DNA of 64,000 nt from Pelotomaculum schinkii (GTDB taxonomy: Bacteria > Bacillota > Desulfotomaculia > Desulfotomaculales > Pelotomaculaceae), in assembly GCF_004369205.1 (NCBI RefSeq), contig NZ_QFGA01000002.1:124001-188000 (forward strand). The letters run 5' to 3'. The notes below the pieces were generated by a model. The model made no database searches, was not told the origin of the DNA, and saw only the letters and a list, made by a program, of their open reading frames with translations. This document shows, piece by piece, positions 15,558-46,301 of the stretch. Numbering within the stretch: position 1 is the first letter of the stretch; each line of letters opens with the position of its first letter. The translations under genes and the position numbers were made by a program.

Positions 15558-16591
15558 TGAACCACCGCCTGGGAAGGCGCACAGCGCCGGGTAAAATCGA
15601 CCAGTTTCTGGAGTTTACCCAGGGCAGCGCCGCTATCGATGCTGCAGGCAGCCATTTTCAGGGCTTCTGCAATACCACCGGCAGCTCCCCCGGCAACTAA
15701 CCCCAGGGCGGCATTAATGAGGACTACATCACGACGCGGCCCTTTCTCCCCTTCCAGGATGGACAGGGTAACCATGGCGTTCTCACTTGGTGTCCCCCCC
15801 GCCAGGGCGGAAACAGGCGCGTATTTAAAACCAAAGCGTGCCGGGTCCAGGGTGCCCTTACGGACAGAACCTTCTTTAACTTCACAGAGGACGGAAGGAC
15901 CGGCCAGGGAAACCTCGTCAAGACCTCCTGCCCCGTGCACCACGAAGGCCCGGACCGAGCCGAGCCTGGCCAGCACTCTGGCCAGCGTCTCCGCAAGCGG
16001 CGGGTTGTAGACACCCAAAACCTGCGCCCCGGCCCCGGCCGGGTTGGTGAGGGGCCCCAGAATATTAAAGACGGTGCGGATACCGATCTCACGGCGCGGG
16101 CCTGCGGCGTATTTCATAGAGTGGTGCAGGGACGGCGCAAACAGAAAGGCTATGCCAACCTCACGCAGGCAGGCCTCCACAGCTTCCCGTGCGAGGTCAA
16201 CCCTTACCCCAAGTTCCTCCAGTGCGTCAGCGCTGCCACTGCGGCTTGAAACAGACCGGTTTCCATGCTTGGCGACGGGTAAGCCGGCTCCCGCCACCAC
16301 AAAGGCAGCAGTGGTGGAAATATTGAAGGTCCCTGAACCGTCTCCCCCGGTTCCGCAGGTGTCAACCAGGACCGGGTAGTCCGATTTGACCGGCTCTGCT
16401 TTCTGCCTCATCACCCGTGCAAAACCGGTAATTTCCTCCACAGTCTCACCCTTCAGGCTCATCGCCGTCAGCAATGAGGCGATCTGCGCGGAGCTCGTTT
16501 CCCCCGCCATAATTTTCTCCATAACTGCGGCAGCCTCTCCTTCTGTAAGGTGCTGACCGCAAACGACCTTTCTAATTGCTTCTTTAATCAC
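15554..16591 (-). CDS. trpD: Anthranilate phosphoribosyltransferase
   Basis: A 345-residue enzyme that transfers phosphoribose to anthranilate. The PRPP motif is DTCGTGGDGSGTFNISTT, and the anthranilate-binding region KHGNRSVSSRSGSAD is intact. The start is GTG 16591, with GAGGAGG 8 nt upstream. It is stand-alone (not fused to TrpG) and is separated from trpG by about 120 bp that hold a repeat element, the only sizeable gap in the operon. Confidence 0.96.
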   Translation of the reverse strand: MIKEAIRKVVCGQHLTEGEAAAVMEKIMAGETSSAQIASLLTAMSLKGETVEEITGFARVMRQKAEPVKSDYPVLVDTCGTGGDGSGTFNISTTAAFVVAGAGLPVAKHGNRSVSSRSGSADALEELGVRVDLAREAVEACLREVGIAFLFAPSLHHSMKYAAGPRREIGIRTVFNILGPLTNPAGAGAQVLGVYNPPLAETLARVLARLGSVRAFVVHGAGGLDEVSLAGPSVLCEVKEGSVRKGTLDPARFGFKYAPVSALAGGTPSENAMVTLSILEGEKGPRRDVVLINAALGLVAGGAAGGIAEALKMAACSIDSGAALGKLQKLVDFTRRCAPSQAVVQ

Positions 16592-16620
16592 TCAGCTTAC
16601 CTCCTCTCAGCTATGCTAAT

Positions 16621-18839: not shown

Positions 18840-18874
18840 AAAAAAGCAAAAACCGGCACTCAAACGAGTGCCGG
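18840..18874 (-). terminator. Attenuator terminator of the trp operon
   Basis: Reading the minus strand, a 9-bp GC-rich stem CCGGCACTC/GAGTGCCGG with a GTTT loop (18853-18874) is followed by TTTTTGCTTTTT. It lies about 100 nt before the trpE start and after the NAG array, so transcription must pass it to reach trpE. A partial alternative pairing is possible between GAGAGTTCGG at the end of the array (about 18904-18895) and the 5' arm of this stem. That would be an antiterminator; the pairing is imperfect. Confidence 0.85.
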
Positions 18875-18898: not shown

Positions 18899-18971
18899 AC
18901 TCTCATCTCAGCTAAGCTCAAAACTTCTCAACTTTACTCTGCTCTAAACTTACTGCTCTAACTACCTACTT
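18899..18971 (-). promoter_or_regulatory. NAG-triplet array in the trp leader (TRAP-like or HutP-like RNA site)
   Basis: On the minus strand, NAG triplets start at a strict 5-nt period: plus coordinates 18902, 18907, 18912, 18917, (18922 empty), 18927, 18932, 18937 and 18942. Read 3' to 5' they are GAG, GAG, TAG, GAG, gap, GAG, AAG, GAG, GAG, separated by exactly two nucleotides. Further AAG, CAG, GAG and TAG triplets lie upstream, to 18971, with looser spacing. The B. subtilis TRAP target is eleven (G/U)AG triplets spaced 2-3 nt; HutP also reads NAG triplets. The terminator follows about 25 nt downstream. Confidence 0.8.
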
Positions 18972-19075: not shown

Positions 19076-19495
19076 TTAAGATTGTACTGCCCTGTGGCCC
19101 AAACCGATAGCTACATCATCCATATGCAGGAGGCCAACACCAAAGAATACGGCTACACTGATATGGTCACCCTGCCTGGCTATCCCGATTTTTCCCCCAA
19201 CGTTAAAACCAATGGACTTTGTCATAATTTGCGTGATAGCTTCGTGGGCAGCCCCGGCAATGGCGCCTTCGTCGGCGTGCACTTCCTTGATCACGCCTTC
19301 CCGCTTTGCCGCAACTACAGCGCGCTCAATCATTTTGTTTACCGAAGCAATAAAATCTCCACCATAATCAACGGCGGCCGTCTTAATCCCTTCCATGGCA
19401 AAGCGCTGCTTTAATGTCTTTTCTTCTTCCCTGCTCTCGGTTAACGCCATTTCAATTGCCACTCGCGCTACTTTCCTGCTTCCGTAAAGGGCCAT
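19076..19495 (-). CDS. HutP-family RNA-binding antiterminator-like protein upstream of trp
   Basis: A 139-residue protein; start 19495 has GGGAGGAG 9 nt upstream. It resembles HutP across its length: an N-terminal helix with VARVAIEMALTESREEE, a central AAVDYGGDFIASVNKMIERAV, the helix GAIAGAAHEAITQI (counterpart of the HutP His-rich helix), and the strand pair GDHISVAVFFGVG...LLHMDDVAIGLGH (HutP: GDWIAVSLYGTIG...). By eye, the HutP metal ligand His77 and the C-terminal His138 have counterparts, but His73 appears to be Ala, so the ligand may not be histidine. HutP hexamers bind NAG triplets in hut mRNA. The next gene on this strand is the trp operon, with its NAG array. Control of trp by this protein is inference. 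Confidence 0.72.
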   Translation of the reverse strand: MALYGSRKVARVAIEMALTESREEEKTLKQRFAMEGIKTAAVDYGGDFIASVNKMIERAVVAAKREGVIKEVHADEGAIAGAAHEAITQIMTKSIGFNVGGKIGIARQGDHISVAVFFGVGLLHMDDVAIGLGHRAVQS

Positions 19496-19612
19496 AAACG
19501 GCATCTCCTCCCGCATACATTAAAATACACTCCTTAAAGGGAGTGTTACAGCCAATATTATTATACCCCTGGCAACATTATACTGGAGGGATTTTTAAAA
19601 AGCAACAAGGCT

Positions 19613-38691: not shown

Positions 38692-38720
38692 GTGACATTA
38701 TGACGGTCCTGTGATAATAT
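38692..38720 (+). promoter_or_regulatory. Candidate promoter of the trpP transporter operon
   Basis: GTGACA (38692-38697) and TAATAT (38715-38720) are separated by 17 nt. Initiation would fall near 38727, upstream of the triplet array, giving a leader of about 170 nt. Confidence 0.5.
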
Positions 38721-38751
38721 TTAGTAAGTTGGAAGGGTAGCCTTCCACATG

Positions 38752-38826
38752 TAGCAGAGTTGGAATCGACAATTGCATAAGTGAGGTGAGTTGAGCATGA
38801 GCTGAGCCTGGGCGAGTGGAGACGAG
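38752..38826 (+). promoter_or_regulatory. GAG-triplet array in the trpP leader (TRAP-like or HutP-like RNA site)
   Basis: Eight GAG triplets start at 38783, 38788, 38793, 38799, 38804, (38809 empty), 38814, 38819 and 38824. That is a 5-nt register with one 6-nt step and one vacant place. TAG (38752) and CAG/GAG (38755, 38757) lie upstream. The array has the same build as the one before trpE, including a single 7-nt gap. In B. subtilis, TRAP controls trpP through such triplets. Confidence 0.82.
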
Positions 38827-38848
38827 GATTTTTTTTATTTGTCCAAAG

Positions 38849-38876
38849 ACCGGGCCGCGCTGCCCGGTTTATTTAT
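38849..38876 (+). terminator. Attenuator terminator in the trpP leader
   Basis: Stem ACCGGGC/GCCCGGT (38849-38868) with a 6-nt loop is followed by TTATTTATTATT. It lies between the GAG array and the GAGGAGG ribosome-binding site of trpP. The sequence CTGGGC in the gap of the array could pair with GCCCGG of the 3' arm, a possible competing fold (inference). Confidence 0.8.
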
Positions 38877-38896
38877 TATTGAGGAGGTTATTTATA

Positions 38897-39463
38897 ATGT
38901 CTGAACCCCAAGCTTACGAGATTAATATAAACGAAAACAGGATGGCGCGCTCCAAGCAGCTGGCTGTTGTAGCAGTCCTGATTGCCATCGGAGCCGTCCT
39001 GCGCATGTTCACGCCGCCCATCGCGGGTATCACTCCCAACTTCGTCATTGCCATGTACTGTATTGCCATCCTGTTGGTTCGTCCCAACCTCGGCGGCGCT
39101 ATAGGCATCGGCCTGGTAGGCGGCGCGGTGGCCATGATGTTCTCCAAGTCACCCATCCCCTACCTGAATTTATTCTCCGAGCCGGCCGGAGCGCTGGCCT
39201 GCGCTTTTATCGTCAGGTACCTACCGGAATTCAACCTCAGCAACTACTCCTTCAAGCCAATCCTTGCAACAACCATCGGTACGCTGGTCAGCGGCCTGTT
39301 ATACATCACTTTAAACTTCAAGTTTGCCCTGGACCTGCCGCCTGATAAAATGATGATCGCCTGGAAAGCGGCCTGCATCGGAGTGGTAATTCCTGTTACC
39401 GTGATCAATGCCGTGCTGGCCCAGATCCTGTACCTGCCGGCCAAAAAGTTCCTCAAGCTCTAA
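38897..39463 (+). CDS. trpP: ECF transporter S component, tryptophan-specific type (TrpP-like)
   Basis: 188 residues from ATG 38897 (GAGGAGG 8 nt upstream). About six membrane helices: QLAVVAVLIAIGAVL, FVIAMYCIAILLV, IGIGLVGGAVAMMF, ALACAFIV, TIGTLVSGLLYITL and IGVVIPVTVINAVL. The start (LIAIGAVLRMFTPPIAGITP) resembles B. subtilis TrpP (LFAAIGAVLHSIIPPFLGGM). The three genes behind it supply the ATPases and T protein. The regulated leader supports tryptophan as substrate; that remains inference. Confidence 0.82.
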   Translation: MSEPQAYEININENRMARSKQLAVVAVLIAIGAVLRMFTPPIAGITPNFVIAMYCIAILLVRPNLGGAIGIGLVGGAVAMMFSKSPIPYLNLFSEPAGALACAFIVRYLPEFNLSNYSFKPILATTIGTLVSGLLYITLNFKFALDLPPDKMMIAWKAACIGVVIPVTVINAVLAQILYLPAKKFLKL

Positions 39464-39481: not shown

Positions 39482-39556
39482 TTAATTCATTCGCACAAAG
39501 ACCCAAGAGGAATGCAGTATATACCCACGTCTCACGTCTCACATCTCACGTCCCAA
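39482..39556 (-). repeat. Composite heptamer repeat copy, minus orientation
   Basis: On the minus strand: GGGACGTGAGATGTGAGACG and TGAGACGTGGGTATATACTG, then CATTCCTCTTGGGTCTTTGT and GCGAATGAATTAATT. This follows the same order as the copies at 26130 and 42553. It sits between trpP and the first ATPase gene. Confidence 0.7.
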
Positions 39557-39574
39557 TGGAAGGATGAACGAGTG

Positions 39575-40423
39575 ATGCCACTGCTGGAAATCAAAAATTT
39601 CACCTTCAGCTACCCCCAGTCGCCGCAGCCGGCACTGAAAGACATCAACTTCAGCGTGGCAAAAGGTGAATTTATCGGTATCACCGGGCCTACCGGAGCG
39701 GGCAAGACCACCCTGGCCTGCTGCTTAAACGGCATCATCCCTCATTTCCAGGGTGGGAGACTGCAGGGCCGTATCGACCTTCAAAGAACATCAATATTCG
39801 AGCACAGCACCGCCCAGATTTCCCGCCTGGTGGGGAGCGTTTTTCAGGACTCTGAGGCGCAGATTATCTCCACCGAGGTTGAACAGGAACTGGCCTTCGG
39901 ACCGGAAAACCTCGGCTTTCCACCCAGGGAAATTGAGCGGCGCATCAGCGAGGCGCTGGAACTCGTCGGCATCACAGAACTGCGCAACCGGCCAACCATC
40001 AACCTTTCCGGCGGCGAGAAACAGCGTGTGGCTATCGCCGCCGCCCTGGCCATGCTGCCGGAAATTCTGCTATTGGATGAGCCCACTTCCGAGTTGGATC
40101 CAGTGGGTACAGAGGAAATATTTCAGGTCTTGAGCCACCTGAACCGTGCGCACGGCATCACCATCCTGATGATTGAGCAGAAGACAGAGCAATTGGCCGC
40201 CTATGCCAACCGGATCCTGGTACTCAACGGCGGAACGGTCGCGTTGGAAGGGGAACCCTGGCAGGTTTTTGCCAGGCAGAATGAACTGGAGGAAATAGGT
40301 GTCAGGATACCCCAGGTGACCCGGCTGGCAAGCATGCTCGGCGGTCATGACAAGTATTCACTGCCCCTGACGGTGGAGCAGTGCCGCATTTTTGTAGAAA
40401 GAATGCTGCGGAGGCAAATATAA
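39575..40423 (+). CDS. ecfA: ECF transporter ATPase 1
   Basis: About 282 residues from ATG 39575. Walker A GITGPTGAGKTTLACCLNG, Q-loop VFQDSEAQI, signature NLSGGEKQRVAIAAA, Walker B ILLLDEPTSELD. The stop overlaps the next start (TAATG). Forms the ATPase pair of the tryptophan-type ECF transporter with the following gene. Confidence 0.94.
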   Translation: MPLLEIKNFTFSYPQSPQPALKDINFSVAKGEFIGITGPTGAGKTTLACCLNGIIPHFQGGRLQGRIDLQRTSIFEHSTAQISRLVGSVFQDSEAQIISTEVEQELAFGPENLGFPPREIERRISEALELVGITELRNRPTINLSGGEKQRVAIAAALAMLPEILLLDEPTSELDPVGTEEIFQVLSHLNRAHGITILMIEQKTEQLAAYANRILVLNGGTVALEGEPWQVFARQNELEEIGVRIPQVTRLASMLGGHDKYSLPLTVEQCRIFVERMLRRQI

Positions 40424-41271
40424 TGACCAGACCGGCTTTGATCAAAATAGAAAACCTTTCCTACGCCTATAACGGAGGGCGCCCGGTCCTGAAAAATATT
40501 TCCATGGAAATAGGCAAGGGAGAATGTGTGGCCATCATCGGTCAAAACGGAGCCGGTAAAACTACTTTGGCCAAGCACTTTAACGGACTGCACAAGCCTT
40601 CCTCGGGCAAGGTTTACGTCGGAGGCAGGGACTCCAATCCCCTTAAAGTTTCCGAACTGGCCCGTACGGTGGGTTACGTCTTTCAGAACCCCGACCACCA
40701 GATCTTCCATGATACCGTCGGCCGGGAGGTCGCTTTCGGCTTAAAGAACCTGGGACTGCCTGCCGGGCAGATCAAAGAAAGGGTCGACGAAGCGCTGGCA
40801 GAAGTGGGATTAACCGGGCATTACCAGACCTACCCCTTCAATCTGAGCAAGGGGCAACGGCAGCGGGTGGCCCTGGCCTCGGTGCTGGCCATGCGGACTG
40901 AAGCAATAGTACTGGATGAGCCCACCACCGGCCAGGATTACCGCGAATCGAAGCAGATCATGGAGATGGTCAGAAAGCTGAATGAAGCCGGGCATACCAT
41001 ACTCTTTATTACCCATGACATGTCGCTGGTGGCGCGTTACGCCAAACGCGTCATTGTACTTTGCCGGGGTGAGGTCCTGGTTGACGGGGAGGTGCGCTCA
41101 GTATTCGCCCGGCCTGAGTTATTGAAAGAAACCTACCTCAGCCCGCCCCAGATAACGGCCCTGGCTCAAAGCCTGGGAAGGCACGCGATCCCCCCCGGAG
41201 TTTTAAGTGTCGAGGAGATGTACCAATTGCTGACAATGATGGGAGGTGAGCAGCTTGGCTGCTGCCGTTGA
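40423..41271 (+). CDS. ecfA2: ECF transporter ATPase 2
   Basis: 282 residues from ATG 40423, which overlaps the previous stop. Walker A IIGQNGAGKTTLAKHFNG, Q-loop VFQNPDHQIF, signature NLSKGQRQRVALASV (K replaces the usual G), Walker B AIVLDEPTTGQD and the His in FITHDMSLVARY. Partner of the preceding ATPase. Confidence 0.94.
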   Translation: MTRPALIKIENLSYAYNGGRPVLKNISMEIGKGECVAIIGQNGAGKTTLAKHFNGLHKPSSGKVYVGGRDSNPLKVSELARTVGYVFQNPDHQIFHDTVGREVAFGLKNLGLPAGQIKERVDEALAEVGLTGHYQTYPFNLSKGQRQRVALASVLAMRTEAIVLDEPTTGQDYRESKQIMEMVRKLNEAGHTILFITHDMSLVARYAKRVIVLCRGEVLVDGEVRSVFARPELLKETYLSPPQITALAQSLGRHAIPPGVLSVEEMYQLLTMMGGEQLGCCR

Positions 41272-42046
41272 ATATATCCATGGCAACTCCCCGGTACACC
41301 GGTTAAATGCCATGTCCAAGATTTTCTGGTCTCTTTTTGTCCTGGCGGCGGGGCTCCTCTTCAATGATTACCGCTACCTCCTGACCCTCTTGTTATCCGT
41401 GCTGTTTGTAGCCGCCCTGGGCGGAGTGCTGAAAAATTTCCTCCCGGCCTGCGCCGGACTGTCAATATTTGCCCTTATTTTATTAATCATTCAAGCCCTT
41501 TTCTACGACCAGGGGCAGGCCCTTTTCCATCTGGTCCCCGGCGCCAACTACCTGCCAGTAACCGACCAGGGCTTGCTCACGGGACTGGCAATGGCCGCCC
41601 GCATGCTGGCACTGGTATTGAGCTTCATGGTTTTTCTGGCCACAACACGCACCCAGGATATCGTCTTGACCCTGGTTGAGAAACTTAAAATCCCTTACGA
41701 CTATGCTTTTACCTTTTTGACGGCGCTGCGCTTTATCCCCACTTTCTTCGGAGAGGTCAGGCAGGTCAGTGAGGCTCAGCAGGCCAGAGGACACGCTTTA
41801 GAAGGGCTCAACCCGTTTAAAAAAATCATGTCCTACGCGCCGGTAGGTGTACCTTTGGTATTGCTCTCTCTTAACAAGGCCGAAAACCTGGCCATGGCCA
41901 TGGAAACCAGGGGCTACGGCGGCGGGCGCCGCACCTACCTGCGTGATCCCCGCCTGGGAGTCGCGGATTACTGTTTGACAGGCCTGATGGCGCTGCTATT
42001 GGCCATCAGCGTGTACGCACGGGTTAAAGGCTACGGTGTCGTTTGA
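41255..42046 (+). CDS. ecfT: ECF transporter T protein
   Basis: 263 residues from TTG 41255 (GGGAGG 8 nt upstream), overlapping the end of the ATPase gene. Membrane helices include FWSLFVLAAGLLFNDYRYLL and FAVLILLIIQALFYD-like segments. The EcfT coupling motifs are EAQQARGHALEG and METRGYGGGRR. It completes a dedicated ECF module with trpP, whereas many S proteins share a common module. Confidence 0.92.
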   Translation: MAAAVEYIHGNSPVHRLNAMSKIFWSLFVLAAGLLFNDYRYLLTLLLSVLFVAALGGVLKNFLPACAGLSIFALILLIIQALFYDQGQALFHLVPGANYLPVTDQGLLTGLAMAARMLALVLSFMVFLATTRTQDIVLTLVEKLKIPYDYAFTFLTALRFIPTFFGEVRQVSEAQQARGHALEGLNPFKKIMSYAPVGVPLVLLSLNKAENLAMAMETRGYGGGRRTYLRDPRLGVADYCLTGLMALLLAISVYARVKGYGVV

Positions 42047-42318: not shown

Positions 42319-42552
42319 TCAGATTCGCTCTGTGGGCTGAACAGTTGTACAGTTGTTTTCAGATAGAGTATTTCCCTGACGATGTGCGCCGTAACAAAGG
42401 AATCCAGCGTCAGGTGTCGAATTATATAAAAATTTGCGTCTTTTAAGCTTATATTTGCCGTCTGAATCCATGCAAATCTAAACGGTCGGATAAAGGAAAT
42501 CAGACAGTACTTTAGACGCGGCACATGGGACATGCAAATTTCAGGAGATTCT

Positions 42553-42611
42553 CCGGAATTACAAGAGACCCTGAAGAAATGCAGGATATACCCACGTCCC
42601 ACGTCCCACAT
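42553..42611 (-). repeat. Composite heptamer repeat copy before iorA, minus orientation
   Basis: On the minus strand: ATGTGGGACGTGGGACGTGG, then GTATATCCTGCATTTCTTCA and GGGTCTCTTGTAATTCC. It ends 16 nt before the iorA start and so may lie in its leader. Confidence 0.65.
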
Positions 42612-42626
42612 AGGGGGAAAACAAAC

Positions 42627-44420
42627 TTGACATTAAAACTCCTCATGGGAAATGAAGCAATTGCCTACGGCGCGATAGAGGCCGGCGTTCAGGTAGCTGC
42701 CGCCTATCCGGGCACACCCTCCTCGGAAGTTCTGTCCACCCTGGCCGGATTGGCCCGGGAAAAGGGCTTTTACGCTGAGTGGTCGGTCAACGAGAAAGTA
42801 GCCCTGGAAGTCGCGGCAGGCGCCGCCTACGCCGGAGCGCGGTCGCTGGCGGCCATGAAGCAAGTCGGGCTGAATGTGGCCTCCGACCCACTGATGAGCC
42901 TGGCCTACATCGGTGTCAAGGGCGGGCTGGTATTAGTGGTGGCGGACGACCCCGGACCGCACAGCTCCCAGACCGAACAGGACACCCGCCTGTTTGCCCG
43001 GTTTGCCAAACTCCCGGTCCTCGACCCGGCCACGCCACGTGAAGCGCTGGAAATGACCAAGTACGCCTTTGATTTATCAGAGAAACTGCTCCTGCCGGTA
43101 ATCTTAAGGCCAACCACGCGGACCTGCCACGCCTGCCAGGACGTGGAGATACAGGATGGCAACGCATCGCTCCAGCCTATTTCCGGTTTTCAAAGAAGTC
43201 CCAACTGGGTGATCTTTCCCAACCTATCCGCCCGTAAACATGTCTGGCTCAACGGCCAGCAGGAAGTCGCGCGGGATAGCTTCGAGAGTTCACCATTTAA
43301 CCAGCTAACAATTAATAAACAATCTGACGTGGGGATTATAGCCTGCGGTGTCAGCTACAACTACGTGATGGAGGCGCTGCAGCTGACCGGCCTTGCAGCC
43401 TCCGTCTTGAAAATCGGCACTCCCTACCCCTTGCCTGCCGGTCCGGTCCTAAAGCTTTTGCAGCATGCCAAAAAAATCCTGGTAATTGAGGAACAGGAGC
43501 CGGTGGTGGAAGACCAGGTTATCGCCCTGGCCTGGAAAAACCGGTATACGACGCAGATATCCGGTAAAAACGACAATCATTCGCCACGTGAAGGCGAGTT
43601 CAATGTGAATAAAGTAAGGAGTATCCTGGAAAGTTTTTACGGCCGGCAGCCTGAGCAGGCTGCAACCTTTACTGCGCCGGAGCTGCCTTTGCGCACGCCC
43701 GTCCTATGCGCCGGTTGTTCGCACCGTGCCTCCTTCTATATTCTTAAAGAAGCCGCGCGTGGCAAAGACACGTTATTTGCCGGGGATATCGGCTGCTATA
43801 CTTTAGGCGCCATGGCGCCTTTATACACAACGGACACCTGCCTTTGCATGGGCGCCAGTGTCAGCATCGCCGCAGGCTTAAGCCGGGTGGAGCCGCACCG
43901 CAAACAGGTAGCCTTTCTGGGAGACTCCACCTTCTTTCACTCCGGCATACCGGGCCTGATTAACGCGGTACACAACGGCGCCAACATCACTCTGATTATT
44001 CTTGACAACAGTACCACGGCTATGACCGGCCACCAGTCCCACCCCGGGCTTAACCGTACAGCAATGGGGCCGACTGACAGGTCGATTGACATAGCCCGGA
44101 TGGCTGAAGCCTGTGGCGTAGAGTTTGTGCGGGTGGCTGATCCCTTTGATCTGAAAACAGCCATGCAGGTGGCTAAAGAGGCCCTTGCTTTTGACGGGCC
44201 ATCCGTAGTGGTTATGCAGCGTGCGTGTGTTGCGCAAATGAAAAAAGGGCGGCGCCGCAGGATTAACCCCGATCTCTGTACAGGATGCGGCGCCTGCGTT
44301 GACGAATTGGGCTGCCCCGCCATCGGTAAACCGGCCGGCAGTCCGGAAATTCTGGATAACTGCTTTGGTTGCGGCTTTTGCGACCAGGTCTGCCCCGTCG
44401 GGGCCATCGAGGAGGTTTAG
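42627..44420 (+). CDS. iorA: Indolepyruvate:ferredoxin oxidoreductase, alpha subunit
   Basis: 597 residues from TTG 42627 (GGGGG 9 nt upstream); the longer frame to 42525 is repeat sequence. The pyrimidine-domain segment is VAAAYPGTPSSEVL, the ThDP domain carries AGDIGCYTLGAMAPL and LDNSTTAMTGHQ, and the C-terminus holds two ferredoxin motifs CTGCGACVDELGCPA and CFGCGFCDQVCPVGA. Oxidatively decarboxylates arylpyruvates from aromatic amino acids to aryl-acetyl-CoA with reduced ferredoxin. Followed by iorB and an aryl-CoA ligase. Confidence 0.95.
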   Translation: MTLKLLMGNEAIAYGAIEAGVQVAAAYPGTPSSEVLSTLAGLAREKGFYAEWSVNEKVALEVAAGAAYAGARSLAAMKQVGLNVASDPLMSLAYIGVKGGLVLVVADDPGPHSSQTEQDTRLFARFAKLPVLDPATPREALEMTKYAFDLSEKLLLPVILRPTTRTCHACQDVEIQDGNASLQPISGFQRSPNWVIFPNLSARKHVWLNGQQEVARDSFESSPFNQLTINKQSDVGIIACGVSYNYVMEALQLTGLAASVLKIGTPYPLPAGPVLKLLQHAKKILVIEEQEPVVEDQVIALAWKNRYTTQISGKNDNHSPREGEFNVNKVRSILESFYGRQPEQAATFTAPELPLRTPVLCAGCSHRASFYILKEAARGKDTLFAGDIGCYTLGAMAPLYTTDTCLCMGASVSIAAGLSRVEPHRKQVAFLGDSTFFHSGIPGLINAVHNGANITLIILDNSTTAMTGHQSHPGLNRTAMGPTDRSIDIARMAEACGVEFVRVADPFDLKTAMQVAKEALAFDGPSVVVMQRACVAQMKKGRRRRINPDLCTGCGACVDELGCPAIGKPAGSPEILDNCFGCGFCDQVCPVGAIEEV

Positions 44421-44427
44421 TATAGCA

Positions 44428-45018
44428 ATGAAGCTCGATATAGTTATCAGCGGCGTCGGCGGTCAGGGGTCCGTGCTGGCCTCCCGGGCGCTGGCCGGCG
44501 CAGGTATGGGCCTGGGACTGGATGTGCGCACCTCGGAAATAATCGGGATGGCCCAAAGGGAAGGCTCTGTCACCAGCCAGGTGCGGATAGGTGAACAGCT
44601 CTTCGGCGCCACCATACCGGACCACGAGGCCGATATCCTGCTCGGTTTTGAACTGGCGGAAACCATAAGAGCCCTGCCCAAGTTGAAACCGGGCGGCGTC
44701 ATTATCGCCAGCTCCTCCGCCATCGTCCCGGTTTCGGTGCAGCTGGGCATCTCCAGCTACGACCGGGAGGCAATGCGACGGTACCTGCGGGAACAACCCG
44801 GAAAGGTAGTTTTGCTCGACCTGGATGAACTGGCCAAAAGCGCCGGCAACATTAAGACCGGCAACGTCATTATCCTGGGAGCCCTGTCCACCCTGCCGGG
44901 ACTTCCTTTTGAACCGGAGCAACTGCAGCAGGCAGTCTTAAACTTAATTCCGGAGAAGCTTCAGAATACCAACAAGCGCGCTTTTGAAGTCGGGCGCCGG
45001 GCCATGGAGGTGGCGTAA
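44428..45018 (+). CDS. iorB: Indolepyruvate:ferredoxin oxidoreductase, beta subunit
   Basis: 196 residues from ATG 44428 (GAGGAGG 9 nt upstream). The gamma-type domain shows IVISGVGGQGSVLASRAL, TSEIIGMAQREGSVTSQVRIG and LLGFELAETIRALPKLKPGG. Partners IorA to complete the oxidoreductase. Its stop overlaps the start of the next gene (TAATG). Confidence 0.95.
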   Translation: MKLDIVISGVGGQGSVLASRALAGAGMGLGLDVRTSEIIGMAQREGSVTSQVRIGEQLFGATIPDHEADILLGFELAETIRALPKLKPGGVIIASSSAIVPVSVQLGISSYDREAMRRYLREQPGKVVLLDLDELAKSAGNIKTGNVIILGALSTLPGLPFEPEQLQQAVLNLIPEKLQNTNKRAFEVGRRAMEVA

Positions 45019-46301
45019 TGTCAGTGGTATCAATTAAAACCAAGAAGCGTTTCGACCTGGAGGAAATCATTGGCGGCCAGGAAGCCAAACTGCGTGAGTT
45101 CTTACCGCGCATCTACAAGAATTCGCCGTTTTACCGCAAAAAGCTGGATGAGGCCGGAATAGACCCGCTGGGTGTGAAAACCATGGCCGATCTGGCCCGG
45201 TTACCATTCACCTCCAAGGAGGAGCTGCGCCAGGGCTACCCGCTGGGGCTGCAAGCCGTTCCGGAAGAAAAAGTGGTACGTATCCACTCCTCATCAGGCA
45301 CCACCGGCAAGCCGATCATCGTACCCTACACCGCCAACGACGTTTCAATTTGGGCCGAGATGATGGCCCGCTGCATGGCCATGGCCGGGGTAACCAACCG
45401 GGACCGCGTCCAGGTCACCCCCGGCTACGGGTTGTGGACGGCGGGGATCGGCTTTCAGGCCGGGGTGGAACGGCTGGGCGCCATGGCCATTCCCATGGGC
45501 CCCGGCAACACGGAAAAACAAATTGAGTTTATGATCGATCTGCAAAGCACCGTCCTGACCGCGACTTCCTCTTACGCCCTGCTCCTGGGAGAAGAAATCA
45601 ACAGGCGGGGACTTAAAGACAAGATCAAGCTGCGCATCGGTATCATCGGTTCGGAGCGCTGGGGCGACAAAATGCGGGCCAGGATCGAAGAACTTTTAGG
45701 CATCGATTCCTTTGATATCTACGGCCTTACCGAAATTTACGGGCCCAGTATCTCCATCGACTGCCCTGAACACGCCGGTCTGCACTACTGGAGCGACCAC
45801 CTGCTTTTTGAAATCATCGACCCGGTCACAGGCGCGCAGCTGCCTCCAGGTAAGGAAGGCGAGCTCGTCGTTACAACCTTGACCAAGGAGGGCATGCCCC
45901 TCTTGCGCTACCGTACCCACGACATCACCCGCCTTCTGACTGAACAATGCGCCTGCGGCAGCCCCTACCCAATGCACGCCCGGGTCCTTGGCCGCACCGA
46001 CGATATGGTTAAAATCAAAGGGGTCAACATCTACCCCGGCCAGATTGACCACGTGCTGAAAATAACCGAAGGAGCCGGCAGCGAATACCAGATCATAGTA
46101 AAACGCTCTGAGGGCAAGGACTCCATCCTGATTAAGGCTGAAGCGCTGGAGGGCCAACCACTTGACAAGGTGGCCGGCGAGCTGAAGAAAAATATAAAAA
46201 CCCGCATTGGGATCCTCACGGACGTGGAAGCCGTCCCACACGGTTCTCTGCCACGGAGCGAAAAGAAAAGCAAAAGAGTATATGACTACAGGGAGTGCTG
46301 A
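45018..46301 (+). CDS. paaK: Phenylacetate-CoA ligase (aryl-CoA ligase)
   Basis: A 427-residue ANL enzyme. P-loop IHSSSGTTGKPIIVPYT, YGLTEIYGPSISIDC, RYRTHDITRLL and the C-terminal GRTDDMVKIKGVNIYPGQ match PaaK. Next to iorAB it could run in reverse, making arylacetate plus ATP from aryl-acetyl-CoA; this is a known pairing in anaerobes but is inferred here. The start overlaps the iorB stop. Confidence 0.94.
   Translation: MSVVSIKTKKRFDLEEIIGGQEAKLREFLPRIYKNSPFYRKKLDEAGIDPLGVKTMADLARLPFTSKEELRQGYPLGLQAVPEEKVVRIHSSSGTTGKPIIVPYTANDVSIWAEMMARCMAMAGVTNRDRVQVTPGYGLWTAGIGFQAGVERLGAMAIPMGPGNTEKQIEFMIDLQSTVLTATSSYALLLGEEINRRGLKDKIKLRIGIIGSERWGDKMRARIEELLGIDSFDIYGLTEIYGPSISIDCPEHAGLHYWSDHLLFEIIDPVTGAQLPPGKEGELVVTTLTKEGMPLLRYRTHDITRLLTEQCACGSPYPMHARVLGRTDDMVKIKGVNIYPGQIDHVLKITEGAGSEYQIIVKRSEGKDSILIKAEALEGQPLDKVAGELKKNIKTRIGILTDVEAVPHGSLPRSEKKSKRVYDYREC

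Follow-up and report, generated by a model that had tools for sequence, protein, structure and literature searches.

A probable TRAP-dependent transcription attenuator precedes the tryptophan ECF transporter genes of Pelotomaculum schinkii

TRAP is a tryptophan-sensing RNA-binding ring protein that, to our knowledge, is known almost wholly from Bacillus. The usual TRAP leader carries about 9–11 NAG triplets (mostly GAG or UAG) separated by spacers of 2–3 nt; in the attenuation of the trp operon, such an array overlaps the antiterminator and is followed by a terminator. Two further RNA-based systems resemble this one: T-box leaders (RF00230), which also attenuate transcription of tryptophan genes in Gram-positive bacteria and which read uncharged tRNA, and HutP, an RNA-binding protein that likewise reads NAG motifs in a leader, with a motif spacing unlike that of the array described here, and acts by antitermination with histidine. 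The trpP (yhaG) gene of B. subtilis is already a TRAP target, and its control, as the first-pass annotation of the present locus also states, is translational, with TRAP blocking ribosome binding (Yakhnin 2004 and Sarsero 2000, listed in PMC4347634; PMC13170310). Here we analyze a 64,000-nt stretch of Pelotomaculum schinkii DNA (the window), which pairs the same regulator family with the same target family (TrpP, PF17099) and in which, unlike in B. subtilis, the array precedes a terminator and lies off the Shine–Dalgarno site. We put at roughly 85% the probability that this leader is a TRAP-dependent transcription attenuator in the broad sense, that is, by either of the termination mechanisms weighed below, and we consider that the same protein very probably switches both tryptophan uptake and tryptophan synthesis in this organism. 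The leader and the genes 3' of it comprise the following features.

38692–38720, + strand: predicted promoter GTGACA-17-TAATAT with TG ahead of the -10 (consensus scan, 9 of 12)
38730–38747, + strand: 5' stem-loop TGGAAGG-GTAG-CCTTCCA, close to where the transcript is predicted to begin (fold)
38767–38781, + strand: element CGACAATTGCATAAG, between the 5' stem-loop and the array (by eye)
38783–38826, + strand: TRAP-type array (predicted binding), eight GAG with one vacant slot (sequence, chain score, genome scan)
38806–38811, + strand: candidate antiterminator strand GCCUGG, in and beside the vacant slot (read from the sequence)
38829–38836, + strand: run of eight U directly 3' of the array (sequence, fold)
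38847–38870, + strand: intrinsic terminator hairpin AGACCGGGC-CGCGCT-GCCCGGTTT, 9 pairs, predicted -14.8 kcal/mol
38881–38887, + strand: trpP Shine–Dalgarno GAGGAGG, outside the hairpin and the array (sequence)
38897–39463, + strand: trpP, tryptophan-type ECF S component, ATG at 38897 (PF17099, E 6e-14)
39512–42046, + strand: ecfA, ecfA' and ecfT, a dedicated energy-coupling module (two ECF ATPases and EcfT)
42525–46301, + strand: iorA, iorB and a paaK-like arylacetate-CoA ligase gene

The GAG triplets start at 38783, 38788, 38793, 38799, 38804, 38814, 38819, and 38824, with periods of 5, 5, 6, 5, 10, 5, and 5 nt that imply one vacant slot, occupied by CCUGGGC. The eight triplets and the vacant place reported in the first-pass annotation therefore stand, and its 5-nt spacing is amended to periods of 5–6 nt. 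We count the array as conforming to the usual TRAP leader; it is one triplet below the usual number unless the vacant slot is included or an AAG at 38779 (period 4), which could serve as a weak additional slot. The array has 8 clear slots versus the 11 subunits of TRAP, which we count against a TRAP attenuator; close relatives have 9–12 slots. The succession of terminator and trpP ribosome-binding site after the array is as first annotated, with an interrupted U-tract 3' of the hairpin (UUUAUUUAUUAUU). The 3' end of the array is 54 nt from the trpP Shine–Dalgarno sequence, and neither the sequence nor the chain score described below reveals an array over the Shine–Dalgarno and start region (38870–38900) of the window. 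Several relatives have a similar AGTGACA...TATAAT spacing upstream, and a 5' stem-loop is also present in the trp leader of B. subtilis (PMC3913778). The CGACAATTGCATAAG element is similar in most relatives, with a consensus (by eye) of about GACAAYUnnAUA; in three loci (L023, L140, and L145) more GAG/UAG repeats lie 5' of an element of this kind, suggestive of a TRAP site in two parts. An Rfam search of the window returned no match at gathering score, the T-box RF00230 included, and a permissive search of the trpP leader gave chance-level matches only.

We scored chains of NAG triplets by dynamic programming, with 30 first-order Markov simulations of a 64-kb strand as the null. The trpP array is the top chain of the window (9.9) and an array in the trpE leader is the second (8.6), against a simulation maximum of 5.2, which bears out the earlier view that a code shared by two leaders is improbable by chance. 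A generic model of ten (G/U)AGNN units was also constructed, with synthetic sequences as its input to keep it independent of the trpP and trpE sequences. Run over the whole 4.44-Mb genome, in the manner of the scan for NAG arrays that the first-pass annotation proposed, this model matches the trpE leader (E 0.0029), the trpP leader (E 0.0036), and the ribosome-binding site of trpD (E 0.098); matches are limited to these three sites, the next one being at chance level (E 9.8), which is the result that the annotation predicted. A five-repeat pattern with one mismatch shows no enrichment in the genome (four matches versus five for a reversed control), and all four forward matches lie at trpP and trpD; it is the full-length array only that discriminates from chance. 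The sites of the trp operon and its neighbor are as follows.

18902–18968, - strand: TRAP-type array of the trpE leader, GAG/UAG/AAG/CAG (chain score, genome scan)
18853–18874, - strand: terminator hairpin of the trpE leader, CCGGCACTC-GTTT-GAGTGCCGG
16591–16618, - strand: third array, UAG UAG GAG GAG AAG GAG, over the trpD Shine–Dalgarno and start (chain score, genome scan)
19076–19516, - strand: HutP-family gene directly upstream of the trp operon (PF09021, E 1.8e-49)

The trpE and trpP leaders lie about 20 kb apart on opposite strands, as first described, and the code is more degenerate at trpE. The trpE leader fits the arrangement known from trp operon attenuation, and the 5' arm and loop of its terminator are, like those of other leaders considered below, complementary to the array in a truncated fold. 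The third array is held in a trpG–trpD gap of roughly 120 nt; arrays at the trpD start occur in about a dozen of the 60 relatives to which the generic model was applied. This trpD site, the identification of the regulator as TRAP, and the dual-mode relatives described below were absent from the first-pass finding.

The genome encodes one TRAP/MtrB protein (PF02081, E 1.9e-39), whose closest solved chains are TRAP rings, single-ring chains scoring E values of about 1e-29 to 1e-27 (1c9s, 1wap) and 1c9s itself 5.5e-29. It keeps the segments HSEKLDKGE and IKIRG, which in B. subtilis TRAP hold Lys and Arg residues that contact the RNA. A search of the genome for anti-TRAP (PF15777) found none. As in the known attenuation of the trp operon, a TRAP gene is present, the NAG triplets have 2–3 nt spacers, the terminator follows the array, and the array overlaps a candidate antiterminator; the trpP leader differs in its target (a transporter operon), in its stronger, GC-rich hairpin, in its vacant slot, and in that anti-TRAP was not found.

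TRAP is found in 109 of 120 relatives. Homologs of trpP occur in 26 genomes, that of P. schinkii included, nearly all with an array and a terminator, and each of the 24 leaders measured has its terminator 13–42 nt 3' of the array. When 60 relatives (P. schinkii among them) were scanned with the generic model, an array was present upstream of trpP in 15 of the 16 genomes that bear the gene and upstream of trpE in 34 of 47. In a named panel that overlaps the 120 relatives (28 loci plus G113; Pelotomaculum, Desulforamulus, Desulfofundulus, Heliobacterium, Desulfosporosinus, Pseudobacteroides, and other genera), the array precedes trpP in 22/22 TRAP-positive genomes and is absent in 4/7 genomes without a TRAP match (Fisher about 0.0015, a value that assumes independent genomes, which these are not). 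In two of these four genomes a T-box (RF00230) stands before trpP instead of the array (L027:338–764 and L146:784–1062), whereas the window is without a T-box match; the three genomes that keep the array without a TRAP match (L135, L150, and L151) are draft assemblies and possibly incomplete. In L134, which encodes a TrpP 70% identical to that of the window and in which TRAP was not found, the leader contains a terminator-like hairpin and no array, possibly a remnant after TRAP loss. The leaders take three forms: array and terminator only (the window, its family, L010, L012, and L024); array and terminator with a second short array over the Shine–Dalgarno sequence (L013, L014, L016, L017, L020, L025, L139, and others); and, as in B. 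subtilis, an array over the Shine–Dalgarno sequence only (L026). The proposal that a single RNA-binding regulator serves tryptophan synthesis and uptake thus gains support from the TRAP gene, from the confinement of the arrays to trp genes, and from the way in which array and TRAP track each other across genomes.

We infer TRAP binding, a tryptophan response, the direction of control, and an antiterminator from these features, and propose that, when tryptophan is plentiful, the Trp-bound TRAP ring would wrap the GAG array as the trpP transcript emerges; the wrapped array could not pair downstream, the terminator at 38847–38870 would form, and transcription would stop before trpP and the ECF genes. 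Under tryptophan shortage, TRAP would not bind, and the array region, including GCCUGG, would compete for the 5' arm of the terminator and allow read-through. The trpE leader would be controlled by the same protein in the same way, and trpD through a blocked ribosome-binding site. GCCUGG is complementary, with one G-U pair, to CCGGGC in the terminator 5' arm (38850–38855), and in relatives the 5' arm and loop are complementary to GAG-containing segments of the array. In 20 of 24 leaders this complementarity exceeds that of shuffled arms (mean z -1.2); cognate array–arm pairs show no preference over swapped pairs (permutation p 0.46), and a hairpin between the last repeats and the U-tract gives a borderline permutation p of 0.055. 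At equilibrium, the predicted probability of the terminator rises with TRAP from 0.21 to 1.00 in L004, from 0.36 to 0.99 in L012, and from 0.53 to 0.99 in L023, and is 1.00 in both states in the window, where the predicted gain from the antiterminator is only -4.6 kcal/mol (truncated RNA). We regard an antiterminator overlapping the array as only moderately supported, and as weak in the window. Given that the window terminator is predicted to form in both states and that its antiterminator is weak, a switch would have to be kinetic or depend on direct TRAP-induced termination.

The latter would mean that TRAP binds and halts transcription directly, by pausing or forward translocation at the run of eight U or at the hairpin, without a classical switch. 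Precedent exists in B. subtilis: as an intrinsic terminator the trp attenuator is weak there, and TRAP still ends transcription in its absence, a termination for which A+U-rich segments matter (PMC3913778). The weak antiterminator of the window fits this route, as does the position of the eight U, which adjoin the array in the window and in relatives of its family; by analogy with B. subtilis (PMC3913778) they may be a TRAP-dependent pause or termination site, or else may pair with the last GAG triplets. Against it, the window has a strong, GC-rich hairpin, in contrast to B. subtilis, and several relatives have a thermodynamic switch. We therefore consider direct termination a possible but rather unlikely main route; given that it is a sub-case of TRAP attenuation, its probability overlaps with that of our main reading.

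The readings that depart from TRAP attenuation fare less well. A mainly translational control of trpP by TRAP, on the B. subtilis pattern and with an incidental terminator, draws on the extra GAG array over the trpP Shine–Dalgarno sequence in many relatives and on L026, where this is the only array; we nevertheless judge it improbable, given that such an array is missing from the window and from its family, that the window array stops well upstream, and that every leader measured has a terminator. The earlier preference for transcription attenuation over translational control is thus favored by leader anatomy. The HutP-family gene beside the trp operon raises the idea that HutP reads the array, as HutP relatives recognize NAG motifs and the gene is a strong family match that adjoins trpE in 10 of 30 trpE loci. 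HutP motifs are few and spaced more widely (about 7 nt), whereas the 5-nt period fits TRAP, the genome encodes TRAP, and arrays tend to occur where TRAP does, so we set HutP aside as very improbable. A functionless, purine-rich chance repeat would agree with the five-repeat patterns, which are equally common forward and reversed, but is hardly credible in view of full-length arrays that are confined to trp genes genome-wide and kept across families.

TRAP control may extend to further genes. The iorA, iorB, and paaK-like genes start 479 nt 3' of the ECF genes and so are possibly under the trpP leader. In relatives, an array and a U-tract hairpin precede trpX, encoding a tryptophan ABC transporter substrate-binding protein (NF041285, E 6e-87; L045 and L050, near 1501), and also iorA (L053 and L062), a trpB-led operon, an amino-acid permease gene, and some other genes. 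A phenylacetate-CoA-ligase-like paaK has an array directly upstream in L039 and L051, with no clear terminator. These leaders and the gene order of the window hint at a possible salvage route from indoleacetate to tryptophan under TRAP control. Array-plus-terminator leaders also precede genes for an iron alcohol dehydrogenase, an amino-acid permease, a DctP-like binding protein, and a 4Fe-4S protein (L057, L059, L061, and L066), targets not accounted for as tryptophan genes. With less than even confidence, we speculate that in Pelotomaculum, Desulforamulus, Heliobacterium, and relatives the TRAP regulon comprises trpE and trpD, the transporter genes trpP and trpX, and arylacetate salvage (paaK and iorAB), that some transporter leaders combine an attenuator with a ribosome-binding-site target, and that a T-box replaces the trpP attenuator in some genomes that lack TRAP.

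TRAP attenuation of the trp operon and translational control of trpP are known. In the open-access literature searched, we found no description of TRAP in Desulfotomaculum, Carboxydothermus, or Symbiobacterium, nor of transcription attenuation of trpP by TRAP, of dual leaders, or of the trpD site; these last three appear to be new here, although priority is not certain. TRAP appears to control a transporter here by halting transcription, in contrast to its block on ribosome binding in B. subtilis, and in relatives the two modes occur together. Given that one gene family spans attenuation only, dual control, a Shine–Dalgarno site only, and replacement by a T-box, the evolution of RNA-based control becomes directly testable, and the leaders before iorA, paaK, and trpX predict a role in tryptophan supply for these genes.
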